From: Nitrospinota bacterium
GTDB taxonomy: Bacteria; Nitrospinota; Nitrospinia; Nitrospinales; VA-1
Assembly (NCBI GenBank): GCA_009873635.1
Contig: WAHY01000004.1
Span: 34,054 to 80,872, forward strand
Reading direction: 5' to 3'
DNA: 46,819 nucleotides
The position numbers and the translations under genes were made by a program. The notes beneath the pieces are model-generated. The model saw nothing but the letters and a program-made list of their open reading frames with translations. It searched no databases and was not told where the DNA came from. Below, piece after piece: positions 20,412 to 40,518 of the stretch (its first letter is position 1; every line of letters begins with the position of its first letter).

Positions 20412-22202
20412 ATGTCAGAAATGCTTAACTTTAGGTTCCGGTTTGCCGTTAAGAACTACGGTAGGTGTTCGAACTGGGGTCAGACGCAAAAACTTGATTT
20501 TAGCAGGGTACTGCAGGTGGGTTTTTGCGTTTTCCTTTGGTGGAGTTCTATGGCATCGCTATCCAACGCTCAAATTACTCCCCAGGGACGAGATCAGACA
20601 TATAAGCAAGCGGCTCCAGGTCGGTTTGAGGAAAGATTCAAAAAACAGGAGCTTCCGCAATCTCAGGTGGTGCCTGTAAAGCCCGACAGCTTGAAGCCCG
20701 TTTTCCCGGCCGAGATGAGGAAAGTAAAATTTCTTCTTCAAAGAATGATCATTAAGGGCTCAACGATTTATGACAAACGAAACTTTTCCCGGTTATTTAG
20801 AAAATACCTGCACCGAAGAATAAATCTTGAGCAGGTTTATAATATTGCCCAAGAGATCACAAATATGTATCGCTCCGATGGATACATTCTTTCCAAGGCG
20901 GTCGTGCCTCCTCAAAAAATTGAGGAAGGTATTGTTCAAATTGATGTGATTGAGGGTTTTGTCGACAGGGTAGCTATTCAAGGCCAGGTACGTGGACCAA
21001 GAAAGCTTCTCAATAATTATCGCAGGGCATTATTAAAGTCTCGTCCTTTAAAGGCAAGGGATCTTGAGAGGTATTTATTATTGGTGGATGACCTGCCGGG
21101 TGTTTCAGTCAAGTCTGTTCTTACTCCTTCCAGGTTCAAACAGGGTGCCACCAACCTGACATTGATTCTTAATAATAAAAACTATGACGGAAGCTTAGGT
21201 ATAGACAATCGTGGTACTAAATTTAACGGACCCATACAGATTAATGCGGGGGTGTCTGGCAACTCGTTCCTCAAATTTTATGAGCGCATGGGCTTGCAGG
21301 GAGTAGTGACCAGTAATCCGGATGAGTTGAGTTTTTTTAGTGGTTTCTATGAAAAACCTATCTCGTCAGAAGGCACAAAATTATATTTTTCCGGATCTAT
21401 CAGTAATTCTGAACCAGGTTCTTCTCTTAAAGATTTTGAGGTGGTGGGTGAAAGTAAAACATTCACTCTTAGAATTTCGCATCCATTTATAAGATCAAGA
21501 TCTGAAAACTTTAATGGTTATTTTGGTTACACAAATCGAGATACGGAAACAGAAATTTTAGGACAACTTGACTCAGAAGACCGTTTGCGTATTTTCAATC
21601 TTGGGATGTCTTATGATTTTGTTGACAAGTATCGGGGTGTCAACCTGGTGAGTTTTAACTTAAGCAGAGGTTTAGATATTTTCGATTCAACGGAAACAGG
21701 TTCGGAAAATTTGACTCGTTCTGCGGGGCACAGTGACTTCACCAAAATAACCGGTGAGGCGCTTCGTCTTCAACAGCTCGCACCTTCATGGATGCTGTTG
21801 GGATCCCTTTCCTGGCAATATTCGTTTGATAAATTACTGGCTTCCGAGGAATTTGGGGTGGGTGGCGCGCAGTATGGCCGGGCGTATGACTCTTCAGAAA
21901 TTACCGGAGATCAGGGTTTGGCGTTTAAGTTCGAACTGCAAAAAGCTTTTCAACCTAAGAAAAAATATCTCAGGGGTTTACAGGCTTACACGTTTTTTGA
22001 TTATGGGAAAGTTTGGAATCGCATCGAAACCGCCACGGGCTCCAAGACTCAGGATATCTATTCAATGGGACTTGGTGTCCGTTTCAACTTAACAGATGTG
22101 ATATCTGGATACGTCGAATGGAATAAACCACTGGATGAAGATGTGTCTTCAGAAGGTAGTAAGGACGGAAGAGCATTTTTCAGTTTGTCGGCAAAGTTTT
22201 AG
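20412..22202 (+). CDS. TpsB, two-partner secretion transporter (ShlB/FhaC/HecB family)
   Basis: TpsB proteins are Omp85-type outer-membrane barrels that export one partner exoprotein. The 596 residues have a long polar N-region, then a signal-peptide core (VLQVGFCVFLWWSSMASLSNAQ region, about 35-55). A POTRA_2 domain follows (VKFLLQRMIIKGSTIYDK to VVPPQKIEEGIVQIDVIEGFV, about 95-185), then a second POTRA-like region, then the ShlB barrel from about 265 to the end. The C-terminal residue is Phe (SLSAKF), as expected for BAM-dependent insertion. The ATG at 20412 was chosen for the complete signal region. It lies 10 bases upstream of its partner tpsA. Confidence 0.95.
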   Translation: MSEMLNFRFRFAVKNYGRCSNWGQTQKLDFSRVLQVGFCVFLWWSSMASLSNAQITPQGRDQTYKQAAPGRFEERFKKQELPQSQVVPVKPDSLKPVFPAEMRKVKFLLQRMIIKGSTIYDKRNFSRLFRKYLHRRINLEQVYNIAQEITNMYRSDGYILSKAVVPPQKIEEGIVQIDVIEGFVDRVAIQGQVRGPRKLLNNYRRALLKSRPLKARDLERYLLLVDDLPGVSVKSVLTPSRFKQGATNLTLILNNKNYDGSLGIDNRGTKFNGPIQINAGVSGNSFLKFYERMGLQGVVTSNPDELSFFSGFYEKPISSEGTKLYFSGSISNSEPGSSLKDFEVVGESKTFTLRISHPFIRSRSENFNGYFGYTNRDTETEILGQLDSEDRLRIFNLGMSYDFVDKYRGVNLVSFNLSRGLDIFDSTETGSENLTRSAGHSDFTKITGEALRLQQLAPSWMLLGSLSWQYSFDKLLASEEFGVGGAQYGRAYDSSEITGDQGLAFKFELQKAFQPKKKYLRGLQAYTFFDYGKVWNRIETATGSKTQDIYSMGLGVRFNLTDVISGYVEWNKPLDEDVSSEGSKDGRAFFSLSAKF

Positions 22203-22211
22203 GAAAATTTT

Positions 22212-25200
22212 ATGAACGTTTTTGAATTGAATCAGAGGGCTTTCCCCAGCGGAGACGCTGGTGGTAATGAAATTAGTAACGCCTCTGCTTCGCGATTAAA
22301 CAGTGATGGTGGCCATAAAGGCAAAAGCTCTCTAAGAAATACGAGAGTGGGCAGGCGCAGGGTTTTTCATATTCCCAAAAAGCCTGGAAACACCGTTATC
22401 TTCCTGGTGTCATTGCTGTCGTATCTTGTCGGGATTTTCCCGTCAATGGTTTTCGCGCTTCCTGCTGGGGGAACGGTACAGGCCGGTTCGGCGACCATTG
22501 ACCAGACCTCTTCCCAGAAAATGACCATTCATCAATCTACGGAAAAAGCCATTATTGATTGGCAAGCGTTCGGTGTGGGCGGCTCTGAACATGTCGACTT
22601 TCAACTGTCACAGGGCGGGGTCACACTCAATCGGGTAACGGGAAATGATGTATCGCAAATATATGGCAAGCTGACTTCTAACGGAGATCTCTGGTTGATC
22701 AATCCTAATGGAATTCTTTTTGGTTCCAATGCGCAGGTGGATGTTAATGGTTTGCTCGCGACCACCAGCGATATTTCCAACACAGATTTCATGGATGGCA
22801 ATTATAACTTTGGCATTCCTTCCGATTTATCTGCGACAGTGGTCAATCAGGGTAGTATCACTGCCGCTGAAGGTGGACTGGTTGCTCTGGTTGCTCCCGG
22901 TGTCCAGAATATGGGAATCATTAACGCTCGTCTGGGCAAGGTGAGCCTGGCTTCTGGAAAAACTTTTACCGTGGATTTGTATGGAGATCAGCTCATCAAC
23001 CTGGGAGTGGATAGCCAGGTGATGGGACAAGTGACAGGAATGGATGGAGAGGTTTTATCTTCTCTGGTTTCCAATAGTGGGAGTGTCTTTGCTGATGGCG
23101 GGATTGTTCGTCTGGATGTCAACGCGGCGCAGAACATTGTGGATAAGGTGATTAATATGGATGGGGTCATTCAGGCTCGTTCAGTATCTGAGAAAAATGG
23201 AGCCATCATCCTCTCCGGCGGCGAAGCAGGAGAAGTCAGTGTGACCGGAACACTCGATGCCTCGGGTTATGATGAAGGCGAAACGGGAGGTACTGTCCAT
23301 GTCCTGGGTGACATACTGAATTTTACAGGGAATGGACTTATTGATGTTTCGGGTGATATGGGTGGCGGAACACTCCTTTTTGGTGGTGACTATCAGGGGC
23401 AGGGAACAGTACCTAATGCGACGGATGTATTTATCGGTCCCGATACACATATATTTGCGGATGCGGTGAACAATGGCAACGGGGGTAAAGTGATTTTCTG
23501 GGCCGATCGGCGCATGCGGTTTTTCGGCATTGTCAAAGGTCGGGGTGGTAAATATTTTGGCGATGGTGGGTTCGTAGAAGTTTCCGGAAAAGAAGAATTA
23601 TATTTTGATGGTTCGGTGGATACCACTGCCGCCAACGGTAAAACAGGAACCCTGCTCCTTGATCCTGACAATCTCATTATTGCAAAGGGATCTGGCGCCA
23701 GTGCCAGTGGTGCAACCACTGGAACAATTTATGAGGCCACCCTTGAAGGTGCCACAGCGACCACCAACGTCGTTCTACTCGCTACCAACAGTATTATTTT
23801 GGGTAAGGATAGCAGTGAACAGATCAGTCTCGACATGCAGCAGACCAGTGGTAATTCTTTAACCTTCAAAGTCACGGATGGAACTATTAGCTTCTCAAAT
23901 ACTTTGAGTTCGGTATCCACACAAGGGGGAGATATTATTTTTGACGCATCGGGGGGGTTGTCTTTAGGGAGCCTGACGTCAAATGGTGGAGATATCTCGT
24001 TAAAAGGAAGTGACTTGACATTGCTCAATTCTGCAACAAGGCTGAATGCCGGGACAGGGAACATCAATATCACTGAAGCCAAACTGGGAGATATTGGGCT
24101 TGGCAACGCCACCTGCACGGGTACCTGTGGTATGACAATCAGCAACACAGATTTGGGCAAAATGAGCGGTAACAAGCTCATCATCAATGGCAGTTCAAAT
24201 AACGGTGCTATATATGTAGATGGTGTGACGCAAACCACAAGTACTTTTACCGGTGGAGTGGAATTGAAAGACGCGCACATTTCTGGTGCTAATGGAGGAA
24301 TATTTTTCCAGGGCGCGTCTACATTTTCAACCTTAAAAGCTTCTGCGGTGAATGGCATCGATGTCAATGCCAACCTGACAACGACAGCTGGAGCCTTGAC
24401 TTTGGATGGGGACTCAAACAATGTTGTGGAGAGCGTGGCACCACAGGATGATCTGAGTATAGCCAGCGGGGTCACTTTAACCAGTGCGAGCGATATTTCT
24501 CTGAGTGCTTCCACTGGGGGAATTTCCGCGGCAGGGGCTTTAACTTTGTCCGCACCCTCCAGCATTTCACTGACCGGAAATCTGACTGTTGCCGGAGCGG
24601 CATCCTTGACCGCTAATTCTGGTATTACTATAAACAATAACATCACCACTTCATCCGGTGGGGCTTTAACTGTCAACGCAAATTCTTCAACCCTGTCTTT
24701 AGCAAGTGGAGCTGCTTTAAGTTCGGCAGGTGCAATGTCTTTGTCCGCAGGTAGTATTTCCTCTGCGGGAAACCTGACTCTTACTTCCACAGGTTCTACG
24801 ATAGACGTTAACAGTGCCTTGACTTCTACAGGAGCAGTGGCAATGACTGCCAGCAGCGGGCTTTCCTTGAATAACAGTACACTGACCGGAGCGGGCAATA
24901 TAACTCTTCAAGGTGGCAGCGGTTTAACTTCAGTCAGTGGTATGGGCATCACTTCATCGGGTGGCAATATCACGCTGGGTGCTTCGGGAGGAAGCATAAC
25001 CGGGAACGGGGCTCTAACGCTTTCTTCAAATGGCAGTATTACGGTCAGTGACACGATGACAACAGCCGGTGCGGCGACATTCAATGCGAATTCAGGAATA
25101 ACTCTTGGGTCCAGTTTCACTGCTAATGGCGCGGTGACTATGGATGCGGATCTGGATAATAATGGTTCCGGCGATTTTGTAATTTCATCGGGAACATTAT

Positions 25201-28010
25201 CGACTACCAACAACGCGTTAACGGTAACTGCTAATGACCTTACTTTGACTGGAACCATTAATAGCGGTACCGGCTCGACCACCATCAATGTTTCAGACGG
25301 CGAATCTTTGGGAATTGGTAATGGATTATCTGGTTTTGGAATGATTATTGATGGAACGGAGCAGGGTAATATAGCCGGTACGGGCGATATCAACATTCTG
25401 AATAGCAACATCACTTTTTCTGCCGGCAACAGTTTTAGTTCGACAGGGAGCCTGACAATTGGTCAGAGCGGTGGGACAATAACCGGTCAGGGAGCCCTGA
25501 CTTTAAACGGATCCAATGGATTAACTATCAACAGTAGTGTCACGGCGGCAGGGAACCTGTCTCTGGATGGAGACTCAAATAATTCGTCGAATTCGAATGA
25601 CAGAATTACTCTGGGTTCTGGTGTAACGCTCACATCAACAGCAGGCTCTATTAGCCTGGATGCGACCACTGGTGGTATTTCCGCAGCTGGGGCTGTGAAT
25701 CTAAACGCAACCAATGGAATCACTATCAATAACAACTTTACATCTGCGGGTGCCACGACATTTGATGCGGATACGGATAATGATGGAACGGGAACCCTCA
25801 CTAATGGTTCAACACTGAGTACCGGAAATAATACTCTTTCCATTACAGCCTCAGACCTGGCCTTGAGCGGTACGATGAACAGTGGAACCGCTGGAACTAC
25901 TATTTTAGTTTCGCAGTCAGGCGACACAATTGGATTGGGAACAACAGGAAGCATGAGCCTGAGTAATACCGAGCTTGGAAACATCTCGGCTGGAAGTCTT
26001 ACCATTGGCGATGGAACAAATGGAAATATAACTGTCGATGGAGTGCTCTCTGCCAATAGCGACCAGTTTGGAACGCTTACTTTGAACGCTACGGCTTCCG
26101 GCTCATCAGTTACATTTGGAACTACGGACTCTTCTTTTCAAGGCTTGGTAGTGAACTCGGGTGATGGAATTACTCTATCGTCAAACCTCACCACCAATGG
26201 AACAACAACTTTTAATTCAGATTCAAACAGTTCCGGCACGGGAAGTTTTACGATCAATTCTTCTAAAACTCTCAACACAACCAATAATGCGTTGAGCATT
26301 ACTTCTAAAAGCCTGTCTCTCAATACTGATGGAGCGATCAATTCTGGTACTGCTGGCACCACTCTACTGGTTTCCCAGTCAGGAGACACTATTGGGCTTG
26401 GAAGCGGAACGGGTGATTACTCTCTGAGCAGTTCTGATTTAAATCAGATTGCAGCGAGTAATTTAACTATAGGGAACTCAACAAACGGGACAATAACTGT
26501 GGATGGTGTGACTTCTACATCTACTCCACTTACCTTGGTAGCGAGTTCCGGTGCGAGCGCAATTAACTTTTCATCAACGGCTTCTTCTTTCAGCAGCCTG
26601 ACTCTGGATGCGGGAACGGGTGGTGTGGGCTTTGGAGCAAATGTGTCCACTTCCGGAAACTTGAGCGTCAACTCGGGTGGAGCGATCACGGATACAGGAA
26701 CTTTGTCCATAACAGGAACATCAACTTTTACGACGGATGTTGCCAATCAAGCTATCACTCTTGACAATACATCCAATTCGTTTGCAGGCGGGGTGAGCTT
26801 GAATACTTCAGGAACAGGTGATGCGACTTTAACCACCAACAACGCGGTGACTCTATCTTCTTCTACCATTGGTGGAGATCTCAGTGTAACGGTCGGTGGA
26901 GATAATTCTTTGAATGTGACAGGCGCGGGAACGGCCGGCGGTAATATTAACCTTCTGGCAGACGATGACATCCTTTTCACTTCCGAAGGAGACCTTACTG
27001 CCTCCTCTGGAATAACCGTTACTGCCGATAACGATCTTGACCAAAATGGAACTGGAGGAGCTGTGACTATGGCAGATGGAACTGTGTTTAACTCAGGTTC
27101 AGGAACAATGGCTCTTTCTGCCGATGAAGATATTGCGCTTGGCCTGATTCAGACCAGCAGTTCCTCGGATACGGCTGTGACGTTGACTTCGACCAGTGGA
27201 GGTGTGGTCGATGCGGATACAGCTTTACCGCCCAGTTCCACTAGGTTAGGAGCCAATACCAGTGCGTGGCTTGATATTGACGCGGCAAATGGCAGGCTGG
27301 TTGCAGATGTGGCAACAGGGTTCGGAGCGACTAATGCCATCGAGACGAGAGTTAAATCTGTAGATATAGACAATACAAAATCTGGAGCCGTCGACATATT
27401 CGAATATGATGATTTGGAAGTTGTTAAAATTAGCAATTCAGGAGGAGGTGTAGAGGTTTCATTTGAAGGGTTGATTTCCGGAAAAACAAATTGTACAGCA
27501 TCTGGAGCCTGTAAGTTTACCCGGCGTGATATCCGTAACGAACTCATACCCGGTACGGGTAAGACTCTTGGTCAGCTTGCTGATGGCACCACACCACAAC
27601 AACTGAAATTTAATATCTTCGAATTGAAGGATCAGGGACTTTACGAGAAGACACCGGTAGATCATGTTGCTGGTTCTCCCAGAGGACCATTCACAGCAGA
27701 CCTTTTCAGTGAATCATTTGATTTGGTTGAGTTAGCAGAGGGATCTGCCGGAAAGTTTGAAGGAATGGAAGTGAGCCAATCTTTCTGGGGAGACACAAGG
27801 CAGCCCGCCATGGAAGTGGCCAAAAGAAAGGACTTAAGGAGAAAGAACCGGTCCAGCCAGAAAACCGCGAAGAGAAAAAAGAGAAGTGGAAAGAAAATTG
27901 GGGATACAGCTTCCATCACTTTGAATAAACCGATCAAAAAAATGCGAAAAAAACCAGCTGCACCACGTATACAGAAAACGGAATCGGGTTATCTGGGTTA
28001 TACTCGTTAA
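22212..28010 (+). CDS. TpsA, giant filamentous-haemagglutinin-type exoprotein
   Basis: The 1932-residue product is the partner of the upstream TpsB and is expected on the cell surface or released. An unusually long polar lead (about 60 residues) precedes the hydrophobic signal core at 61-82, with cleavage likely after VFA. The TPS secretion domain follows, with NRVTG at 140-144 and NPNGILFG at 164-171. Residues 500-1700 are Ser/Thr/Gly/Asn-rich beta-helix repeats, including near-identical blocks at about 1223 and 1377. Only four cysteines were found, as two pairs: C635/C639 and C1761/C1767. The last 100 residues are strongly basic. Likely an adhesin; no toxin domain or immunity gene was recognised. 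Confidence 0.95.
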   Translation: MNVFELNQRAFPSGDAGGNEISNASASRLNSDGGHKGKSSLRNTRVGRRRVFHIPKKPGNTVIFLVSLLSYLVGIFPSMVFALPAGGTVQAGSATIDQTSSQKMTIHQSTEKAIIDWQAFGVGGSEHVDFQLSQGGVTLNRVTGNDVSQIYGKLTSNGDLWLINPNGILFGSNAQVDVNGLLATTSDISNTDFMDGNYNFGIPSDLSATVVNQGSITAAEGGLVALVAPGVQNMGIINARLGKVSLASGKTFTVDLYGDQLINLGVDSQVMGQVTGMDGEVLSSLVSNSGSVFADGGIVRLDVNAAQNIVDKVINMDGVIQARSVSEKNGAIILSGGEAGEVSVTGTLDASGYDEGETGGTVHVLGDILNFTGNGLIDVSGDMGGGTLLFGGDYQGQGTVPNATDVFIGPDTHIFADAVNNGNGGKVIFWADRRMRFFGIVKGRGGKYFGDGGFVEVSGKEELYFDGSVDTTAANGKTGTLLLDPDNLIIAKGSGASASGATTGTIYEATLEGATATTNVVLLATNSIILGKDSSEQISLDMQQTSGNSLTFKVTDGTISFSNTLSSVSTQGGDIIFDASGGLSLGSLTSNGGDISLKGSDLTLLNSATRLNAGTGNINITEAKLGDIGLGNATCTGTCGMTISNTDLGKMSGNKLIINGSSNNGAIYVDGVTQTTSTFTGGVELKDAHISGANGGIFFQGASTFSTLKASAVNGIDVNANLTTTAGALTLDGDSNNVVESVAPQDDLSIASGVTLTSASDISLSASTGGISAAGALTLSAPSSISLTGNLTVAGAASLTANSGITINNNITTSSGGALTVNANSSTLSLASGAALSSAGAMSLSAGSISSAGNLTLTSTGSTIDVNSALTSTGAVAMTASSGLSLNNSTLTGAGNITLQGGSGLTSVSGMGITSSGGNITLGASGGSITGNGALTLSSNGSITVSDTMTTAGAATFNANSGITLGSSFTANGAVTMDADLDNNGSGDFVISSGTLSTTNNALTVTANDLTLTGTINSGTGSTTINVSDGESLGIGNGLSGFGMIIDGTEQGNIAGTGDINILNSNITFSAGNSFSSTGSLTIGQSGGTITGQGALTLNGSNGLTINSSVTAAGNLSLDGDSNNSSNSNDRITLGSGVTLTSTAGSISLDATTGGISAAGAVNLNATNGITINNNFTSAGATTFDADTDNDGTGTLTNGSTLSTGNNTLSITASDLALSGTMNSGTAGTTILVSQSGDTIGLGTTGSMSLSNTELGNISAGSLTIGDGTNGNITVDGVLSANSDQFGTLTLNATASGSSVTFGTTDSSFQGLVVNSGDGITLSSNLTTNGTTTFNSDSNSSGTGSFTINSSKTLNTTNNALSITSKSLSLNTDGAINSGTAGTTLLVSQSGDTIGLGSGTGDYSLSSSDLNQIAASNLTIGNSTNGTITVDGVTSTSTPLTLVASSGASAINFSSTASSFSSLTLDAGTGGVGFGANVSTSGNLSVNSGGAITDTGTLSITGTSTFTTDVANQAITLDNTSNSFAGGVSLNTSGTGDATLTTNNAVTLSSSTIGGDLSVTVGGDNSLNVTGAGTAGGNINLLADDDILFTSEGDLTASSGITVTADNDLDQNGTGGAVTMADGTVFNSGSGTMALSADEDIALGLIQTSSSSDTAVTLTSTSGGVVDADTALPPSSTRLGANTSAWLDIDAANGRLVADVATGFGATNAIETRVKSVDIDNTKSGAVDIFEYDDLEVVKISNSGGGVEVSFEGLISGKTNCTASGACKFTRRDIRNELIPGTGKTLGQLADGTTPQQLKFNIFELKDQGLYEKTPVDHVAGSPRGPFTADLFSESFDLVELAEGSAGKFEGMEVSQSFWGDTRQPAMEVAKRKDLRRKNRSSQKTAKRKKRSGKKIGDTASITLNKPIKKMRKKPAAPRIQKTESGYLGYTR

Positions 28011-32082: not shown

Positions 32083-32110
32083 CCCCTCTTTGGTAAAGAG
32101 GGGTCATTTT
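32083..32110 (+). terminator. Rho-independent terminator after elbB
   Basis: A perfect 9-bp stem (CCCCTCTTT / AAAGAGGGG) with a 3-base loop is followed by TCATTTT. It lies about 40 bases past the elbB stop and separates elbB from the glycan operon. Confidence 0.7.
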
Positions 32111-32271: not shown

Positions 32272-33285
32272 ATGGGCGAAAAAACTTTATTGGTCACAGG
32301 TGGTGCGGGTTTCATCGGCAGCAATTTCATCAATTTTATTCATAACCGTTACCCGAACACCAGGATCCTTTTGCTGGATGCTTTGACTTATGCCGGCAAC
32401 CTCGACAACATACCTGTCAGCCTGAAGTCGAACGGGCATTTTCAATTTCATCACGGCAACATCACGCATCCCGACATTGTCGGCAAGCTGGTTTCAGAGG
32501 CGGATATAGTGGTGCATTTCGCGGCGGAGTCGCACGTGACCCGCTCGATTTACGACAATGCTATTTTCTTTGAGACCGATGTAATCGGCACTCAGGTGGT
32601 GGCAAATGCCATTGTGAACAATCCGGTCGAGTTGTTTGTGCACATTTCTTCTTCAGAAGTGTATGGCACGGCTGTGGCGGACCCGATGGATGAGGACCAT
32701 CCGTTAAACCCGATGAGTCCATACGCTGCGGCGAAAGCCGGCGCAGACAGGTTGATTTATTCTTACATGAAAACTTACGACCTGCCGGCGGTCATCATTC
32801 GCCCGTTTAATAATTATGGTCCGTGTCAGCATCTCGAAAAGGCCATTCCTAATTTTATTGTCAGCGCATTGCAGGACCAGCCGTTGACCATTCATGGTGA
32901 TGGCAAAAGCTCGCGCGACTGGATGTTTGTGGAAGATACTTGTGAGGCGTTGGACAGGGTTCTGCATGTGGACCGTGACCGGGTGATTGGTCAAACGATC
33001 AACCTGGGAACCGGGGTAGACACGTCTGTGGTTGAAATTGCCAGAAGAATATTAAAGTTGATGAACAAGCCTGAAAGTTTATTGCAATTCATTGAAGACA
33101 GACCCGGGCAGGTGACCCGGCATATATCTTCTGTTAACAGATCCCGCGAATGCCTGGGTTGGCAATCAACAACAGGTTTGGATGAGGGTCTCGAACGCAC
33201 CATTGAGTTTTATGATAACAATCGAAAATGGTGGGAACGGACTCTGTGGATGAAAGAGCTTTGGGCTCCCAAAGGGCAAGCGTAA
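32272..33285 (+). CDS. SDR-family NDP-sugar 4,6-dehydratase-like enzyme
   Basis: An extended short-chain dehydrogenase acting on sugar nucleotides, probably in the cytoplasm. The 337 residues show the Rossmann loop GGAGFIGSN at 10-18 and YxxxK at Y151/K155. The catalytic loop reads SSSEVYGTA. RmlB-type dTDP-glucose dehydratases have TDEVYG there; the S-E form is seen in LegB/Gmd/ArnA-type enzymes, so a LegB-like 4,6-dehydratase is the nearest fit, not classical RmlB. The FNNYGPCQHLEKAIPNFI segment supports this. It is the first gene of the glycan operon; a TATAAT lies at 32230-32235 with a weak -35. A sugar-4-epimerase is the main alternative. Confidence 0.88.
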   Translation: MGEKTLLVTGGAGFIGSNFINFIHNRYPNTRILLLDALTYAGNLDNIPVSLKSNGHFQFHHGNITHPDIVGKLVSEADIVVHFAAESHVTRSIYDNAIFFETDVIGTQVVANAIVNNPVELFVHISSSEVYGTAVADPMDEDHPLNPMSPYAAAKAGADRLIYSYMKTYDLPAVIIRPFNNYGPCQHLEKAIPNFIVSALQDQPLTIHGDGKSSRDWMFVEDTCEALDRVLHVDRDRVIGQTINLGTGVDTSVVEIARRILKLMNKPESLLQFIEDRPGQVTRHISSVNRSRECLGWQSTTGLDEGLERTIEFYDNNRKWWERTLWMKELWAPKGQA

Positions 33286-33992
33286 TGCGGATCACAATTC
33301 TTCAACCTTCTTATCTGCCGTGGTTGGGATTTTTTGAGCAGATGAGCCGTGCCGACAAATTTGTTCTGCTGGATGATGTCCAGTATACCCGTCGGGACTG
33401 GAGAAACAGGAACCGGGTCAGGGTGAATGACGGTTGGGCATGGTTGACGGTGCCGGTTCAGCAGAAAAACAAATTTTCGCAAAGCCTCATTGAGACACGC
33501 ATCGATAATTCTGTGGCATGGCGGAAAAAACATTTGCAGACTTTGCGACAGCATTATTGCAAGTCGCAATTTTTTGAAAACTATTTTCCGAGGTGCCAGA
33601 AAATATATGAGAAAGAATGGACGTTTTTGTTCGACATTTGCCTGGAAACGATAAGTTTTCTTAAAGAAGAAATTGGCATTGAAACTCCGCTACTGCGTTC
33701 ATCCAATATGAATATCACAGGAGAAAAAACAGAGAGACTCCTTTCGATTTGCCGGGAACTGGGAGCGACCCATTATTTGAGTGGTGAAGCGGCTAAAGAT
33801 TATATATTGGAAGAGGATTTTTCGAACCAGGGTATTGAGCTGGAATATCAGAAATATGAACACCCTGTTTATCCGCAAAGGTATCCCGGCTTTGTGCCTC
33901 AGATGTCCACAATTGATTTATTGTTCAATTGTGGTGAGCGGAGTCTGGATATTTTGAATCAGCATGAAGCTTTGAGTTCAGGTTGTTCATAG
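33285..33992 (+). CDS. WbqC-family protein
   Basis: WbqC proteins occur in O-antigen and other surface-polysaccharide clusters; their reaction is not firmly known. The 235 residues begin MRITILQPSYLPWLGFFEQM, then DKFVLLDDVQYTRRDWRNRN, both family signatures, followed by VPVQQKN. The ATG shares one base with the previous stop codon (TAATG), so translation is coupled. An upstream extension of 19 codons in this frame reads over the preceding gene and is not used. The GATHYLSGEAAKDYI segment is also typical. Likely part of sugar modification for the operon's product. Confidence 0.9.
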   Translation: MRITILQPSYLPWLGFFEQMSRADKFVLLDDVQYTRRDWRNRNRVRVNDGWAWLTVPVQQKNKFSQSLIETRIDNSVAWRKKHLQTLRQHYCKSQFFENYFPRCQKIYEKEWTFLFDICLETISFLKEEIGIETPLLRSSNMNITGEKTERLLSICRELGATHYLSGEAAKDYILEEDFSNQGIELEYQKYEHPVYPQRYPGFVPQMSTIDLLFNCGERSLDILNQHEALSSGCS

Positions 33993-34002
33993 GGTTTTAA
34001 TT

Positions 34003-35217
34003 ATGATTGATTTTAAATTTCTGCAAAAAATATTGCCGCGTCTTTATTCGTTCCTGCCGTTTTATCTGATGCCGCGGTCTTCCTTTCCTCCGGTGCAGGC
34101 ATTTTTTGAAGTGACTTATCGGTGCAACCTGCGTTGTGACATGTGCCATTACCTGGAGATCATTGATGAAACGGAAACGAACCATTCTTATAAAAATGAG
34201 ATGTCGAGTGAGGAAGTGAAAAAAGCGATTTCCAAACTCCCCCGTTTTTCGCTGATCACTTTCACCGGAGGTGAGGCGTTCATGAAAAGTGATTTCATGG
34301 AAATTCTTGAGTTCGCGGCGAGGCGGCACAAAGTTCATATCATCACCAACGGAACCACGTTGAGCGAAAAAGTTGTGGATGATCTCATGCGGTTGAGATT
34401 GAAGTCTACCTGGGGTTCCGGGCTGTTTTACATGGGAGTTTCTTTAGAAGGAGCAGAAGCATTGCACGATAGCATCACCACCGTTCCGGGATCTTTTAGA
34501 AAAACAACTCAGGGGTTGGAGAGATTGGTGGCGAAACGGAAGGAACTGAAATCAAGATTCCCCCTCATTCACGTAACGTGTGTGATCAACCGGGCAAATG
34601 TCAGGGAACTGGTTCCATTGTATGAATATTCCAACAAGCTGGGGGTCAACGTTGCTAACTATGTTTTAAGCAGTCCGGCCACTTACTGGCATGGCAAGGA
34701 TTATGACCAGGATCACCACTTGCAGCGGCCCACGATGCCGGTTGAAGAAATTGATCCGAACGTTTTGCGGGAACAGTTGGAATTGTTGCAGGAGGCTGGC
34801 AGAAGAAACCAGACCCAGCTGAGGTTTTCACCGAACTATATAACGATCGATGAGATAGTGCGCTACTACAGCAATCGAAGCTCCTACCGGGATTACCGTT
34901 GCTATATTCCATGGACCAAGGTGGCTTTTTCGGCTTATGGAGATGTTTTCAGTTGCCCGCATTACAGGGTAGGAAATGTTGCTGATGGAAATCGTTCACC
35001 GGCCTGGCAGTCTGATCGGATTCGTGGTTTCCGGGAAAAACTGAAGGAGGAGGGAATTTTCCCCGGCTGTCTGGGTTGTTGCCAGTCTGAGTATATTGGG
35101 ACCTCCGCGTTGGAGGGTGAGGCCGTTACTGAACGTAAGGTTAAACGTGTAGAGTTTGCGAAGGTCAAAGAAAATGGTTGTTCAGCACCAGCTTTCCACC
35201 GGGCAGGAACCGGTTGA
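34003..35217 (+). CDS. Radical SAM enzyme with SPASM-like C-terminal cysteines
   Basis: The 404 residues bind a 4Fe-4S cluster through C41-x3-C45-x2-C48 (RCNLRCDMC). GGEAFM follows in the strand that binds SAM, as expected (family GGE motif). A C-terminal cysteine set, with CYIPW, SCPHY and FPGCLGCC, resembles SPASM/twitch domains that hold extra iron-sulfur clusters. Such enzymes in surface-polysaccharide operons modify sugars or small carriers, but the substrate cannot be read from sequence. An amphipathic helix (residues 1-28, FKFLQKILPRLYSFLPFYLMP) may tether it to the membrane. It follows the WbqC gene by 10 bases and overlaps the glycosyltransferase gene by 44. Confidence 0.88.
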   Translation: MIDFKFLQKILPRLYSFLPFYLMPRSSFPPVQAFFEVTYRCNLRCDMCHYLEIIDETETNHSYKNEMSSEEVKKAISKLPRFSLITFTGGEAFMKSDFMEILEFAARRHKVHIITNGTTLSEKVVDDLMRLRLKSTWGSGLFYMGVSLEGAEALHDSITTVPGSFRKTTQGLERLVAKRKELKSRFPLIHVTCVINRANVRELVPLYEYSNKLGVNVANYVLSSPATYWHGKDYDQDHHLQRPTMPVEEIDPNVLREQLELLQEAGRRNQTQLRFSPNYITIDEIVRYYSNRSSYRDYRCYIPWTKVAFSAYGDVFSCPHYRVGNVADGNRSPAWQSDRIRGFREKLKEEGIFPGCLGCCQSEYIGTSALEGEAVTERKVKRVEFAKVKENGCSAPAFHRAGTG

Positions 35218-36193
35218 TATTGTGGAAGGAATCGATTCGCCGTTAATGGCGGAGATACCGGATATGGATAAGAACCCTGAAATTTCTATTGTCGTTCCTG
35301 TGTATAACGAGGAGCCCTTGATTGAAGAGTTATGCTCGCGCCTGATATGTGTAGGTGATGGGTTGAAGCGTTCATACGAAATCCTGATTGTGGATGATGG
35401 CAGTGATGATGGATCATTTGAAAAACTCAATCGTGTTAGAGAGGCCAATCAAGTAGTTCGCCTGGTTCGATTGACGAGAAACTTTGGCCAACAGTCCGCC
35501 ATGCTTGCCGGATTTAGATTGAGTCGTGGAGAGATAATAGTCCAACTCGATTCAGATTTGCAAAATCCACCAGAGGAAATTCCTAAACTGCTCGACGCAT
35601 TGGCGGATGATGTTGACCTGGTCACCACTGTTCATAAAAAGCGCCGGGATGGTTTACTGCGAGTCATGGGTTCGAAATTTCTGCGAGGATTCGGGCAGAT
35701 ACTTTTTGGAAAAAAAGTACAGCTGAACCTGAGTTCGTTTCGTGTAATGCGTCGCAGCGTGATAGATAAAATTGAAGCATGTCAGGATCGGTCACGCTAC
35801 ATGGCTGTCCTGATGAGTTGGATGGGATTGCCCAGCGTAGAGGTTGAAGTCGAACACCACGCGCGAAAAAAAGGCGAGACCAAATACAGTTTTCTCACAT
35901 TGATAAAACTTTCATGGGACCTGGTTACGGGTTATTCCAACTTTCCGCTCAGGCTGGTGACTTATATGGGACTGTTTGGTGCACTTATCGGGTTCCTGAT
36001 GATGACTTTTCTTTTGTATCAGCGAATCGTCAATGGAATTTTATATGATGGGTTTGTTGTTCTTACAGCGGCTTTTGCTTTTTTTGCCGGAGTTCAGCTC
36101 CTGTCGATAGGGTTTCTGGGAGAATATCTCGGACGTGTCCATAAGCAGATCCAGGAGCGCCCGGACTATATCGTTGAAAAGGTGCTTGAATAA
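35174..36193 (+). CDS. GT2 glycosyltransferase, polyprenyl-phosphate (GtrB/ArnC/DPM1) type
   Basis: Family GT2 membrane enzyme that transfers a sugar from a nucleotide donor to a polyprenyl phosphate. The 339 residues carry ISIVVPVYNE, DDGSDDGS, and QLDSDLQNPPEEIP (the DxD-type donor/metal site). Two C-terminal membrane segments (GLFGALIGFLMMTFLLY and VVLTAAFAFFAGVQLLSIGFLGEYLGR) follow, as in GtrB. The ATG at 35174 is preferred over a TTG six codons earlier. It begins inside the radical SAM gene (44-base overlap) and its stop overlaps the next ATG by one base. Confidence 0.93.
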   Translation: MVVQHQLSTGQEPVDIVEGIDSPLMAEIPDMDKNPEISIVVPVYNEEPLIEELCSRLICVGDGLKRSYEILIVDDGSDDGSFEKLNRVREANQVVRLVRLTRNFGQQSAMLAGFRLSRGEIIVQLDSDLQNPPEEIPKLLDALADDVDLVTTVHKKRRDGLLRVMGSKFLRGFGQILFGKKVQLNLSSFRVMRRSVIDKIEACQDRSRYMAVLMSWMGLPSVEVEVEHHARKKGETKYSFLTLIKLSWDLVTGYSNFPLRLVTYMGLFGALIGFLMMTFLLYQRIVNGILYDGFVVLTAAFAFFAGVQLLSIGFLGEYLGRVHKQIQERPDYIVEKVLE

Positions 36194-37038
36194 TGCGTGT
36201 AAAACCTCTTACTTCATTAATCATCGAGCCGACCAATACCTGCAACCTGCGTTGCACGTTTTGCTTTGTGACAGAAGGTATGACACGGAGCGAAGGTTTC
36301 ATGGACTTTGATCTGTTCAAAAAAGTCATTGATGATTGCCCTGACCTGGAACATCTATGCATGCATAACTGGGGAGAGCCCTTGCTGCATAAAGATATTT
36401 TCAGGATGTTTGACTATGCACACAATGCAGGTGTCAAGTATATCGTTATGAATACCAACGGGACATTGCTGACGGATAAAATGATTGGAAAAATTATTGA
36501 CAGCCCCCTTAATATCATCCGTTTTTCCATTGATGGTTCCGCCGAGACGTTTAAGAAGATACGAGGTGTTGAACTTGATAAGATAGAAAAGAGTATTCTC
36601 AAACTTAAAAATGAAAAAGATCAAAGACGGCCTGGACTGGGCATGGGTGTGGTCTTTACTGTCGAAGAAGAAACGCAGAAAGATGTGGATTCGTTTATTG
36701 AGCATTGGGAATCTATCGTTGACCATGTGCGAACCCAGCCTAAACTGGTCCAAAGTCCAAGAGAGGAACCCTGCCCGGAACCCTTTGGCAAAGATTATGG
36801 CAAGCTTGTGGTGCTGTGGGACGGAACGGTGATCCCCTGTTGTGTGGATTACAACGCAACTTTGAAACTGGGGAATGCTGTTCATGACTGCGTTCAAGAC
36901 TTGTGGCAAGGTCGGGAAATTGAAAGATTACGTGCACAGCATGAAAGGGGAGAGTTCCCTGATGTTTGTATTAATTGCAATGAGTGTCAAACATCGAAAA
37001 CAAAAAAGCGATTCTTTTTTGAGGAGCTCGTTCCCTGA
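36193..37038 (+). CDS. Second radical SAM enzyme, SPASM type
   Basis: The 281 residues have the radical SAM cluster C17-x3-C21-x2-C24 (TCNLRCTFC). An NWGEPLLH segment matches the GE motif, and C-terminal cysteines (GTVIPCCVDYNA and CINCNEC) fit a SPASM-type auxiliary cluster. It is only distantly like the radical SAM enzyme two genes upstream, so the operon has two different radical steps. ATG overlaps the previous stop by one base (TAATG) and its own stop overlaps the next ATG (TGATG). Substrate unknown. Confidence 0.88.
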   Translation: MRVKPLTSLIIEPTNTCNLRCTFCFVTEGMTRSEGFMDFDLFKKVIDDCPDLEHLCMHNWGEPLLHKDIFRMFDYAHNAGVKYIVMNTNGTLLTDKMIGKIIDSPLNIIRFSIDGSAETFKKIRGVELDKIEKSILKLKNEKDQRRPGLGMGVVFTVEEETQKDVDSFIEHWESIVDHVRTQPKLVQSPREEPCPEPFGKDYGKLVVLWDGTVIPCCVDYNATLKLGNAVHDCVQDLWQGREIERLRAQHERGEFPDVCINCNECQTSKTKKRFFFEELVP

Positions 37039-37844
37039 TGGACTCAGCAATGACATCTTTTGCCACCAGGGAAAAAGTGCTGGAAGAAAACCGAAGGGTT
37101 CATGCCCTGGAGAATCGGTTATATCTATCACGCCATCCTGAGCAGACCAATTTTTTCCAGAGCGCCATTTTAGATAAGGTTGTGAATGAGATCGCCGCCA
37201 CCCTGAAACCCGACTCGAAAATTCTTGATCTGGGCTGTGGGACAGGCTATCTGTCTTTGGAGTTTTTATCGCAGGGTTTTCATGTGACCGGAGTGGATTT
37301 ATCGCGCGAAATGTTACAGGCGTTTGAGGAGTCTATTCCGTCAGCCATGAAACAAAAGGCCCGCCTGGTGGTGGGAGATGCTGAGGATTTTTTATCTAAA
37401 AATCAGGACGAATTTGATGTGGTCGTCTTGTCAGCAATTTTACATCATCTCTATGATTATGAACTTGTGTTGCGCCAGGTTTGTAAAAGGCTTTCTTCAG
37501 GAAAAAAATTACTGGTATTTTTTGAACCTCTCAAACAGGACATTCACTCTCCGATGAAATTTGCCATGCATCGTGCGCTTTCCTGGTTTGATGAAAAGTT
37601 ATATCACCTGGTGATGAAGGTGAAGAATATCTCTATCCTGGATGACGAGTACCATCACTCTGATTACCAGAGACAGTTTGGAGGTATTGATCCTGAGCAG
37701 GTTGAAGACATTCTTCGTAAAGAAGGATTAGAGGTTTCCCGGGTTGAAAAATATTGTGCCCGGCGTTATGGGTTCCATTCCTGGATAGCAAACCGAATAT
37801 TGGGAACACAAAATACTTTTAACTTGTTGGCCACCCGCCCTTAG
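37038..37844 (+). CDS. Class I SAM-dependent methyltransferase
   Basis: The 268 residues contain the SAM-binding motif LDLGCGTGYLSLEF near residue 63, then VTGVDLSREML and VVGDAEDFL. VVVLSAILHHL forms motif IV. The C-terminal region is helical, with no membrane segment. It closes the glycan operon, with its ATG overlapping the previous stop. The acceptor could be a sugar, a lipid carrier or a small molecule. Downstream is the convergent GGDEF-PilZ gene, 25 bases away, with an AT-rich weak hairpin between. Confidence 0.88.
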   Translation: MDSAMTSFATREKVLEENRRVHALENRLYLSRHPEQTNFFQSAILDKVVNEIAATLKPDSKILDLGCGTGYLSLEFLSQGFHVTGVDLSREMLQAFEESIPSAMKQKARLVVGDAEDFLSKNQDEFDVVVLSAILHHLYDYELVLRQVCKRLSSGKKLLVFFEPLKQDIHSPMKFAMHRALSWFDEKLYHLVMKVKNISILDDEYHHSDYQRQFGGIDPEQVEDILRKEGLEVSRVEKYCARRYGFHSWIANRILGTQNTFNLLATRP

Positions 37845-37869: not shown

Positions 37870-39027
37870 TTATCTGGAAGGTAACAGGGATTTGGTCAGG
37901 GCATTCGCCAGTTCATTTCCACTGATATCGTTAAACTCAAGAAACGAGATTCCAATGTCATAATGGGAGTCAAATTTCTCTAATCGAACTACCTCAGCTT
38001 TCATGGTAATTGGCGTATCAAGTTTCTGGTCCGCAAGCTTTACTTTTACCCGAGTACCGATGTCAATGGGAACCGGGCTTTCCAGAAGCAAACCCGAACG
38101 GCTGAAATTTTTTCCTTGCGCGGTAACTTGGCTGCGCTCTTGATCTATTTTGTTGATTTGAACATCTCCGGCGAAATCTACCCGTATATAATGACGCTTG
38201 TCCGTATTATGAAGCACAATTCTATTTTTACCATTTTCTTTGGCCTGATAAAGGGCGACATCGGCCATGTTGAGTAATGTTTTGACATCCTTGGCATCTG
38301 CCGGATAAGAAGCCACCCCACCGCTTGATGTCACGCTAAATTGTTTTCCCTCAAATACGAGTTCCAGTTCTTCTATTTTTTGGCGAATGCGCTCGGCAAT
38401 TACAAGTGCATTGACCTTGGTCGTTTCCGGGAGGATGAGAACCAGTTCTTCTCCACCATATCTGCAGGCAAGATCTTCGGTTCTTTTTTCTGTTAACATG
38501 ATTTCTGCTGTTTTCTTCAGGGTCATGTCTCCAGCCTGATGACCATATGTGTCATTCAACTTTTTAAAATTATCGAGATCAAAAAATATAAGAGAAAAGC
38601 TTCCTTCATACCTTTGAGCCCGTTTCATTTCTCCTTCAAGGGCTTCATCAAAGAATCGCCTGTTAAATAATCCGGTTAATCCATCAGAGCGTGAAGACTT
38701 TCTTGTTTCTTCCAATAGATTCAACTCGATCATTGTTGGGGTTGTCATTGTGTTTGAAACATCACAGAAATAGTCGCACATTGCGGTGATCAATTTGACA
38801 GGCCTGTCAAGTTTTGTTTCTAGTAGATCGCGGTGGGCGAGGATACGATCCCAATTAGCTTTGGCATCATTCGCATCGAATTCCAGGTGGGTCAATATAT
38901 TGATTAGAGTTGGATAAACTTCTTCCCCTTCTTTTTCTACCAGCCCCTTAATTGTTTCCAGTAGATCAGACTCTTCATCAAAGGAAGAACTTATAGAATC
39001 AATGATAGACTGCCGTAAGCTACTCAT
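37870..39027 (-). CDS. GGDEF diguanylate cyclase with C-terminal PilZ domain
   Basis: The 385 residues join a helical N-terminal region (about 1-110), a GGDEF domain and a PilZ domain, so the protein probably makes and senses cyclic di-GMP. The active-site motif is GGEEL at 191-195. The inhibitory site RTED (RxxD) is at 182-185, five residues upstream. The PilZ domain starts near 295 with RHYIRVDF and carries NFSRSG (NxSxxG). The order GGDEF then PilZ is less common than PilZ with other outputs. An inverted repeat, GTTACAT-N11-ATGTAAC, lies 21-45 bases upstream. It is not cotranscribed with the glycan operon but lies next to it. Confidence 0.95.
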   Translation of the reverse strand: MSSLRQSIIDSISSSFDEESDLLETIKGLVEKEGEEVYPTLINILTHLEFDANDAKANWDRILAHRDLLETKLDRPVKLITAMCDYFCDVSNTMTTPTMIELNLLEETRKSSRSDGLTGLFNRRFFDEALEGEMKRAQRYEGSFSLIFFDLDNFKKLNDTYGHQAGDMTLKKTAEIMLTEKRTEDLACRYGGEELVLILPETTKVNALVIAERIRQKIEELELVFEGKQFSVTSSGGVASYPADAKDVKTLLNMADVALYQAKENGKNRIVLHNTDKRHYIRVDFAGDVQINKIDQERSQVTAQGKNFSRSGLLLESPVPIDIGTRVKVKLADQKLDTPITMKAEVVRLEKFDSHYDIGISFLEFNDISGNELANALTKSLLPSR

Positions 39028-39047
39028 CCTGAAACCCAGTCATAAGA

Positions 39048-39072
39048 GTTACATGTCGATTATAAATGTAAC
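39048..39072 (-). promoter_or_regulatory. Inverted repeat at the GGDEF-PilZ promoter
   Basis: Two perfect 7-base arms (GTTACAT / ATGTAAC) surround 11 bases. Within the spacing lies most of TATAAT on the minus strand at 39059-39064. The placement fits a repressor operator at the -10 region, but no regulator is known. Confidence 0.4.
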
Positions 39073-39165
39073 ACCTGAGCAGGGAAAATCAATAGACTAC
39101 GCAGCCATTTTATAAAATATAGACAGACCAATATTTAAGGAAAAAGTAAGGGAAGTATCAACTTT

Positions 39166-40518
39166 TCAAACAATTTCGAGAACTTGCAGGTTAGTCAGCA
39201 CCGTGGATTTTTGCAACGCATCTTCACCTTTAGGGCTCAGCTTGTTACCCGCTACATTTAAAGAATGCAGTCCTGCCAGCTGCTTGGAGTTAGCAAGATA
39301 AATGGCGCCTTCATCACCAATAACATTTAAGGCGAGTACCAGGTGGCGCAGGCTGGACAGGTTTTTGGACTCAGCCATTGCCTTGATACCCTGCGCGTGA
39401 ATCCAGTTTTCATTTTCCAGATGTAATGATTCCAGTTGAGTCAGTGTTTTAGAGTTAGCCAGCGCTGAAGCTCCCTGGTCTGAAATATTATTATTATTCA
39501 GCCTTAAATATTTCAATCCTGCGCAATGGGGAGATTGAGCCAAGGCCTTTGCGCCTTCCTGGCCAACTTTATTTTCGCCAAGATCAAGGCTTTCCATCCC
39601 TCTCATATTTGTTGAACCAACTAAAGCCTCGACCCCATCAGCACGAAGATCGTTATTGTTTAGATCGAGTGCTTTAAGTTTGGTGATTGATTTGGAGTTA
39701 GACAGCGAAATGGCACTGTCGGTTGTCAATCCGTTATTGTGCATAACGAGTGTTTCCAGGTTTTCAAACATGGCAGACTCTGCCATGGCGTAAACTCCAT
39801 CATCACCAATGTGATTATTGTTGAGGATCAATGTTTTAATACCGGGAAACACATCAGATCGTGCCAGAGCTTCCATTCCTTCGTAAGTCAACCCATTATC
39901 AGACAGATCAATCTTGTTTATTTTTTCAAGGGGAGGTACCTGCGTTAAAAGCTTTAAGCCTTCATCGCCAACTCCCGTGTCACGAAGGTTGATATCTATT
40001 AATTGTCGACCAAGCTTTGAGTCTGCAAGTGATTTGATGCCGAGCGGTTCTAAACGGTTATAGGAAAAATTAAGGCATTCAAGGTTGTTCATTCCTTCAG
40101 TCAGCGAAAGAACTTTTGCGCCAAGTGTACTGATCTCGTTGCTGGACAAACTCAAGTTCTTAAGTTTTGTTAATGCCCGGCACTTGGAAAGGAAGAACAA
40201 GGCTTCGTCATCAAGGTTGTTGTTCGCCAGTGAAAGTTTTTCCAGATTGCGAAAACAATCAGAGGTGCTGAGCGGTTGCAGTCCGGAAGAATTCAGACCT
40301 GTTTGTTCAAGATTGAGAAAAGAAAGTGATTTAAGAGGGGAGGCCTCAGAAATTATCTTGAAGTCGTCACCTTTCAGTTGGCAACCCAGGAGATCCAGAG
40401 ATTTTTTATCAAGACTCAGCTTTTCTCGTATGAGGGAGCCTAAGTCCGGGTTCTCCGTATATTTTTCAAAATGTCGGAGAAACTCCAGGCTATCATCAAT
40501 GTCTTTTGCTTCTGCCAT
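39166..40518 (-). CDS. Cytosolic leucine-rich-repeat protein, ribonuclease-inhibitor type
   Basis: The 450 residues are almost entirely leucine-rich repeats of about 24-28 residues (patterns LxxLxLxxNxL, GxxALA). The style is that of ribonuclease-inhibitor-type LRRs. There is no signal peptide, membrane segment or catalytic domain, so the protein should be cytosolic, unlike many LRR effectors that are exported. The N-terminal about 45 residues are a polar helical cap (DIDDSLEFLRHFEKYTENPD). Function cannot be assigned; such horseshoes usually bind another protein. A strong promoter is directly upstream. It lies between the GGDEF-PilZ gene and smc. Confidence 0.9.
   Translation of the reverse strand: MAEAKDIDDSLEFLRHFEKYTENPDLGSLIREKLSLDKKSLDLLGCQLKGDDFKIISEASPLKSLSFLNLEQTGLNSSGLQPLSTSDCFRNLEKLSLANNNLDDEALFFLSKCRALTKLKNLSLSSNEISTLGAKVLSLTEGMNNLECLNFSYNRLEPLGIKSLADSKLGRQLIDINLRDTGVGDEGLKLLTQVPPLEKINKIDLSDNGLTYEGMEALARSDVFPGIKTLILNNNHIGDDGVYAMAESAMFENLETLVMHNNGLTTDSAISLSNSKSITKLKALDLNNNDLRADGVEALVGSTNMRGMESLDLGENKVGQEGAKALAQSPHCAGLKYLRLNNNNISDQGASALANSKTLTQLESLHLENENWIHAQGIKAMAESKNLSSLRHLVLALNVIGDEGAIYLANSKQLAGLHSLNVAGNKLSPKGEDALQKSTVLTNLQVLEIV

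Follow-up and report, generated by a model that had tools for sequence, protein, structure and literature searches.

A conserved six-gene operon

We analysed a 46,819-nucleotide stretch of a Nitrospinota bacterium genome (order Nitrospinales; GenBank assembly GCA_009873635.1, 2.62 Mb in 54 contigs; contig WAHY01000004.1, positions 34,054 to 80,872; hereafter "the window"), whose GC content and composition are unremarkable, and focused on six co-directional forward-strand genes at 32272-37844. Based on Pfam and NCBIfam families, these encode a short-chain dehydrogenase/reductase (SDR), a WbqC family protein, a first radical S-adenosylmethionine (SAM) protein (rSAM1), a glycosyltransferase (GT2), a second radical SAM protein (rSAM2), and a methyltransferase. 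The twitch cysteines, the GT2 transmembrane (TM) helices, and the neighbors of WbqC (within the same class) and of the second module described below were read from sequence. The operon and its main features are as follows:

32085..32103, +, terminator-like hairpin between the ElbB gene and the operon (pattern scan, consensus match only)
32272..33285, +, extended SDR of the RmlB-like nucleotide-sugar dehydratase family (PF16363; TIGR01181, 325.8 bits)
32647..32667, +, SSSEVYG active-site motif of the SDR, with Ser replacing the RmlB Asp and the Glu retained (alignment of orthologues with E. coli RmlB, Gmd, and ArnA)
33285..33992, +, WbqC family protein (PF08889, 1.6e-83; start at 33285 conserved; AlphaFold2 model with a predicted local distance difference test score, pLDDT, of 90.7)
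34003..35217, +, rSAM1, twitch-type radical SAM protein (PF04055, PF13186; invariant cysteines; fold matches SkfB, BlsE, and DesII)
34123..34146, +, CNLRCDMC, radical SAM [4Fe-4S] site of rSAM1 (cysteines invariant in 20 orthologues)
34900..35082, +, twitch auxiliary-cluster cysteines of rSAM1 (C300-X12-G-X4-C318...C356-X2-C359-C360; region matched by BtrN)
35174..36193, +, GT2, polyprenyl-phosphate sugar transferase of the ArnC/GtrB type; two TM helices at the C-terminus (resembles ArnC and GtrB)
36193..37038, +, rSAM2, twitch-type, BtrN-like radical SAM protein (PF04055, PF13186; BtrN profile match, 3.2e-18)
36241..36264, +, CNLRCTFC, radical SAM [4Fe-4S] site of rSAM2 (invariant cysteines)
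36772..36987, +, twitch auxiliary-cluster cysteines C194, C216, C259, and C262 of rSAM2 (C194-X16-G-X4-C216...C259-X2-C262)
37038..37844, +, class I SAM-dependent methyltransferase (PF13649/PF08241)

A preliminary description of this DNA had proposed a compact six-gene operon, and all six open reading frames, their families, and their tight spacing were recovered here, although its count of six gene boundaries has to be lowered to five internal ones: SDR/WbqC (-1 nt, TAATG), WbqC/rSAM1 (+10), rSAM1/GT2 (-44), GT2/rSAM2 (-1, TAATG), and rSAM2/methyltransferase (-1, TGATG). The -44 value presumes that GT2 starts at the ATG at 35174; a TTG at 35156 or a later Met is also possible, the latter leaving a short gap instead, and the GT2 start often lies further downstream in orthologues. 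The upstream ElbB gene is set off from the operon by the consensus-matching, terminator-like hairpin. Because the same gene order was found again in ~30 loci, and because ratios of nonsynonymous to synonymous substitution rates were 0.03-0.12 across all six genes (window vs five relatives, lowest for rSAM2), this gene set is beyond a chance assembly, and all six genes are under strong purifying selection.

Inheritance of the operon

Among 60 relatives, rSAM1 was detected in 36 and rSAM2 in 38. Within the 30 near-complete genomes, both were present in 19, both were absent in 11, and none was discordant, an agreement with a chance probability of ~2e-8 when genomes are treated as independent; the four genomes with only one of the two genes (G027, G043, G047, G050) are 79-86% complete. 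GT2 and rSAM2 were separated by no more than 16 nt in all 34 loci having both genes. This conservation of order, spacing, co-presence, and co-absence indicates that the genes act together, as had been proposed from their arrangement alone.

In three operon-less relatives, the gene for a leucine-rich repeat (LRR) protein that flanks the operon directly adjoins ElbB, with gaps of 868, 325, and 16 nt (L089, L090, and L092), so that genomes have either the whole six-gene block or none of it. Where present, it is single-copy and occupies a fixed chromosomal site within the family, and the identity of its genes tracks that of the flanking SMC, NadE, and LRR genes (rho 0.89-0.98) and of ElbB (0.79-0.91). 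Given this fixed site, presence or absence as a unit, and divergence parallel to flanking genes, the operon behaves as an inherited chromosomal locus lost in some lineages, and not as a variable antigen cassette. The surface sugar proposed earlier is thus not supported in the sense of a variable O-antigen; within Nitrospinales, the locus is passed on in the manner of core genes. A phylum-wide search detected rSAM2 in 44 of 77 Nitrospinota genomes, all from four families of Nitrospinales except for a single genome (G056) from a different family of the same class, in which related operon parts are present but scattered. Beyond Nitrospinota, coverage was shallow and consisted of a single-sequence genome scan, reaching close relatives only, and a tblastn search of plasmids.

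Two further observations concern these neighborhoods. Downstream of the operon and facing it, a GGDEF-PilZ protein and the 450-aa LRR protein are encoded at 37870-40518 (-), a position held across much of the order, including in genomes with a split operon. The second operon module described below ends, in G056, with a methyltransferase gene that has an apolipoprotein N-acyltransferase-like gene, recognized by eye, immediately after it (L112, 5754-8120).

Enzyme families encoded by the operon

Both radical SAM proteins had been described as SPASM-type. Despite a Pfam SPASM match, neither contains the CX2CX5CX3C of the full seven-cysteine motif; each instead combines CX3CX2C with four C-terminal cysteines for one auxiliary cluster only, and both are thus twitch-type, twitch being a truncated SPASM domain that carries one auxiliary cluster (PMC9012708). 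In rSAM1, C41/C45/C48 and C300/C318/C356/C359/C360 are invariant across 20 orthologues. The best solved relative of rSAM2 is BtrN, which also matches the C-terminal region of rSAM1 and catalyzes the two-electron oxidation of 2-deoxy-scyllo-inosamine (PMC9012708). When the rSAM1 model (pLDDT 82) was compared to known folds, SkfB ranked first, the sugar-nucleoside radical enzyme BlsE second, and the TDP-sugar radical enzyme DesII third. A defense function and a phage origin were also considered and rejected: the PADLOC similarities to viperin and Mad2-like proteins were weak, as expected from shared folds, and PHROGs matches were restricted to generic radical SAM and methyltransferase families.

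GT2 is 38% identical to E. coli ArnC over 312 aa, has ArnC and GtrB as its best PDB matches (9bhc, 5ekp), and displays a DxD motif (DSDLQNPPEE) along with its C-terminal TM helices. While it scores below the ArnC equivalog NF007986 (244 bits vs a cut-off of 529), these features bear out the initial identification of a GtrB-like transferase and place GT2 in the polyprenyl-phosphate sugar transferase type. For the methyltransferase, none of the listed NCBIfam equivalogs scored above cut-off.

The SDR had been read as LegB/Gmd-like and not RmlB, which holds for its active-site motif only. By profile, RmlB is by far the nearest model (TIGR01181, 325.8 bits vs a cut-off of 365.1), compared to 193.5 bits for LegB (TIGR04180, cut-off 475) and 61.2 bits for Gmd, and RmlB structures are its best solved matches. 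Within the host genome, this SDR is the top match to the RmlB model, and no protein of the genome exceeds the RmlB cut-off. At the active site, however, Ser128/Glu129 is invariant in 15 of 15 orthologues in place of the catalytic Asp-Glu pair of RmlB: E. coli RmlB aligns with DE at this site, whereas E. coli Gmd and ArnA have Ser, as in the SDR. A different SDR occupies the same position in four loci (L066, L068, L075, L076), and the two of these that were aligned have SCS for (S/T)SE, so that the dehydratase Glu is absent.

The WbqC protein scores well above the PF08889 gathering cut-off (280.3 vs 21.3 bits). Its structural model yielded no PDB match at E-values up to 0.001, and no solved structure was found for the family. 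The model matches four viral-protein models well; in both structure libraries, HUP-fold proteins, cytidylyltransferases among them, recurred as weak matches, which are no more than suggestive. Elsewhere in the same class, WbqC genes neighbor PIG-L deacetylases, DegT aminotransferases, a NeuB-like gene, or a GT2, methyltransferase, and acetyltransferase set, while on plasmids they occur with pse genes (Mariluticola), in a DegT-radical SAM-methyltransferase run (Solidesulfovibrio), with GT2, methyltransferase, and acetyltransferase genes (Azospirillum), or with aminotransferases (Mycobacterium branderi). This recurrence in amino-sugar, pseudaminic acid, radical SAM plus methyltransferase, and GT2 plus methyltransferase clusters supports a predicted role for WbqC in decorated sugars.

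A seventh gene and a split operon in deeper relatives

In deeper lineages, a gene encoding a ~475-aa B12-binding radical SAM protein (PF02310 and PF04055) lies between rSAM1 and GT2 (L058, L065, L066, L068, L070, L075), and is duplicated in L075. No equivalog scored above cut-off for this protein, the nearest being BchE and HpnJ (167 bits for HpnJ vs a cut-off of 577.6, slightly higher for BchE). The gene is ancestral and retained in these deeper relatives; no orthologue was found in the window genome, and it is missing from the window's genus.

Some deeper relatives carry the gene set as two modules. In G038, it is split into SDR-WbqC-rSAM1 (L063) and B12-binding radical SAM-GT2-rSAM2-methyltransferase (L109), and in G041, rSAM1 and the SDR are found on one contig, with the B12-binding radical SAM, rSAM2, and methyltransferase genes on another. 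No GT2 appeared in the open reading frame table between the B12-binding gene and rSAM2 in L110 and L111. The second module is located amid sugar SDRs, a sugar-isomerase-like cupin, and a flippase-like protein in L109, and downstream of ABC-type exporter-like genes in L110; in L110, L111, and L114, its neighbors are the GGDEF and LRR genes that also adjoin the window operon. This proximity to polysaccharide genes supports an envelope-sugar function.

A proposed pathway for a lipid-linked envelope sugar

Taken together, these results make it probable that the six genes form one operon whose product is a monosaccharide, tailored by radical chemistry and carried on a lipid, that serves some conserved part of the cell envelope in Nitrospinales, although our confidence in any specific chemistry is much lower. 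Gene content, joint inheritance, intact Fe-S and GT2 motifs, and the split into modules are established; we infer the following route, from substrates and reaction types through step order and flipping to product and final target. Starting from a nucleotide sugar, the RmlB-like SDR would oxidize the hexose ring to give a 4-keto sugar, probably via 4,6-dehydration, a reaction that is not secure given the missing catalytic Asp and the Glu-less SDR of two genera. The two radical SAM proteins, which both have one auxiliary cluster in addition to the radical SAM cluster, may then abstract a hydrogen atom from the sugar, most likely for a two-electron oxidation or an epimerization, by analogy with BtrN acting on a cyclitol, and WbqC and the methyltransferase could add or adjust substituents. 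GT2 would move the sugar onto undecaprenyl phosphate, and after flipping, one of the GT-C enzymes of the genome, which encodes ten PMT_2 GT-C regions, might set it on its target. Placing both radical steps ahead of transfer, as the preliminary description did, assumes an order that the sequence does not reveal, and the radical steps could instead follow lipid loading. The window's genus does without the ancestral B12-binding radical SAM step, so that a simpler version of the product is probable for it.

Several observations weigh against this proposal. The operon includes no nucleotidylyltransferase, aminotransferase, flippase, or GT-C gene, and PF04138 had no match in the host genome, i.e. 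no GtrA flippase was found. In the SDR, the catalytic Asp of RmlB is missing, and two genera have exchanged this SDR for one without the dehydratase Glu; the top fold match of rSAM1, SkfB, is a peptide maturase; the sequence does not give the substrate of rSAM1 or rSAM2; and the co-occurrence statistic is inflated by shared ancestry.

Other explanations account for some of the same features. An ordinary O-antigen or exopolysaccharide cassette, horizontally moved and of no special meaning, would fit with families (WbqC, SDR, GT2, radical SAM, and methyltransferase) that are each common in such cassettes, and with the different SDR that two genera carry in this place; we consider it unlikely for a single-copy operon at a fixed site, without polymerase or flippase, and diverging in parallel with flanking core genes. 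As a squalene-hopene cyclase gene shares the window with the operon (3334-5298, +), we also tested a link to hopanoids, in which GT2, the SDR, and the B12-type radical SAM protein would resemble side-chain enzymes such as HpnJ and HpnA. With this cyclase and a true HpnH (contig C10) both encoded, hopanoid production is expected in the host lineage, and the 167-bit HpnJ score of the relatives' B12-binding protein also speaks for such a link. Tailoring of hopanoids by the operon is nonetheless unlikely: HpnH and the cyclase occur in nearly all operon-less genomes while the cyclase is missing from two near-complete operon carriers, which leaves no association, the B12-binding protein falls far short of the HpnJ cut-off and has a slightly higher score against BchE, rSAM1 itself is under the HpnH cut-off (58.8 bits vs 225), and GT2 is of the ArnC/GtrB type.

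The radical SAM proteins could alternatively be two maturases of a system for ribosomally synthesized and post-translationally modified peptides, or for other peptide or protein modification. Peptide maturation is common among SPASM/twitch proteins, and the SkfB fold match is consistent with it, yet all peptide-maturase equivalogs are below cut-off, intergenic gaps of 10 nt or less leave no room for a precursor gene, the ElbB-SDR gap contains no obvious precursor (inspected by eye only), and GT2, SDR, and WbqC indicate a sugar, making such a system very unlikely. Maturation of a cofactor or metalloenzyme, of the tungsten-enzyme maturase type, is suggested by TIGR04317 (tungsten-oxidoreductase maturase), the best NCBIfam match of both rSAM1 and rSAM2; however, the scores fall far short of its cut-off (86 and 113 vs 380), a metalloenzyme gene was seen neither within nor beside the operon, and GT2 and WbqC would be left unexplained, so that we regard it as highly improbable.

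Returning to the envelope-sugar pathway, a more specific version can be put forward tentatively, at somewhat less than even confidence: that a nucleotide sugar, or a sugar already linked to undecaprenyl phosphate, is remodeled for a core Nitrospinales envelope glycan by two twitch radical SAM enzymes (three if the ancestral B12-dependent enzyme is counted), with WbqC as a catalytic partner, in a previously undescribed pathway. The preliminary description had not recognized a known pathway here, and the searchable literature, which lacks most subscription journals, agrees: the enzyme types are individually known, and neither their combination nor its product is described. No pathway was found there for WbqC with radical SAM enzymes, or for radical SAM enzymes in O-antigen, undecaprenyl, or Nitrospina contexts, and nothing was found on Nitrospinales envelope glycans. 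Nitrospinales are major marine nitrite oxidizers, and are known as aerobic. If the proposal is correct, a vertically inherited radical SAM sugar pathway would mean that aerobic nitrite oxidizers put oxygen-sensitive enzymes to an unusual use. WbqC, along with the many uncharacterized radical SAM genes of sugar clusters, would then gain defined partners and an assay. Natural strains with and without the locus permit a direct comparison.

Elsewhere in the window, a two-partner secretion pair, composed of a ShlB/FhaC-type transporter and a 1932-aa TPS-domain exoprotein, is encoded at 20412-28010 (+).

Comparison with known systems

Two lipid-carrier systems share the transferase type. As in ArnBCADTEF, which adds L-Ara4N to lipid A, an ArnC-type GT2 would load a tailored sugar on undecaprenyl phosphate, and the (S/T)SE motif of the SDR is shared with the ArnA C-terminal domain. 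Unlike in that system, the SDR is closer to RmlB, radical SAM enzymes are present, and the ArnA formyltransferase, ArnB aminotransferase, ArnD, ArnT, and ArnEF are absent from the operon. O-antigen glucosylation by gtrAB(C) likewise relies on a GtrB-type GT2, but GtrB takes plain UDP-glucose and has no tailoring operon, and GtrA is without a match in the host genome.

The radical chemistry has counterparts in antibiotic biosynthesis. The TDP-desosamine pathway also pairs an RmlB-type SDR with a radical SAM enzyme, the dehydratase DesIV being followed later by DesII acting on a TDP-sugar (PMC11434129). DesII is among the top fold matches of rSAM1; the operon differs in having neither an aminotransferase nor DesII orthology, and its product is predicted to be loaded on a lipid carrier instead of joining a macrolide. 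BtrN, the twitch dehydrogenase of butirosin biosynthesis, shares its auxiliary-cluster region and size class with rSAM2 (PMC9012708), although it is remote (profile E-value of 3e-18) and belongs to a cyclitol antibiotic pathway and not to an envelope glycan.

Plasmids provide two further parallels in gene content. On Solidesulfovibrio pDCAR1, a DegT-radical SAM-methyltransferase-WbqC run joins three of the operon's families, but includes an aminotransferase, lacks an RmlB-like SDR and GT2, and is found amid transposases. Brachyspira hyodysenteriae pBHWA1 carries seven radical SAM genes amid rfb, SDR, and glycosyltransferase genes, for which a role in lipooligosaccharide synthesis or glycosylation has been proposed (PMC4267127). 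This cluster differs from the Nitrospinales operon in being plasmid-borne and strain-variable and in its identity to rSAM2 of only 27%, and the genes named in the stretch shown include neither WbqC nor one of the GtrB type. Its existence on a Brachyspira plasmid nevertheless indicates that sugar clusters with multiple radical SAM genes are an existing, poorly understood kind.

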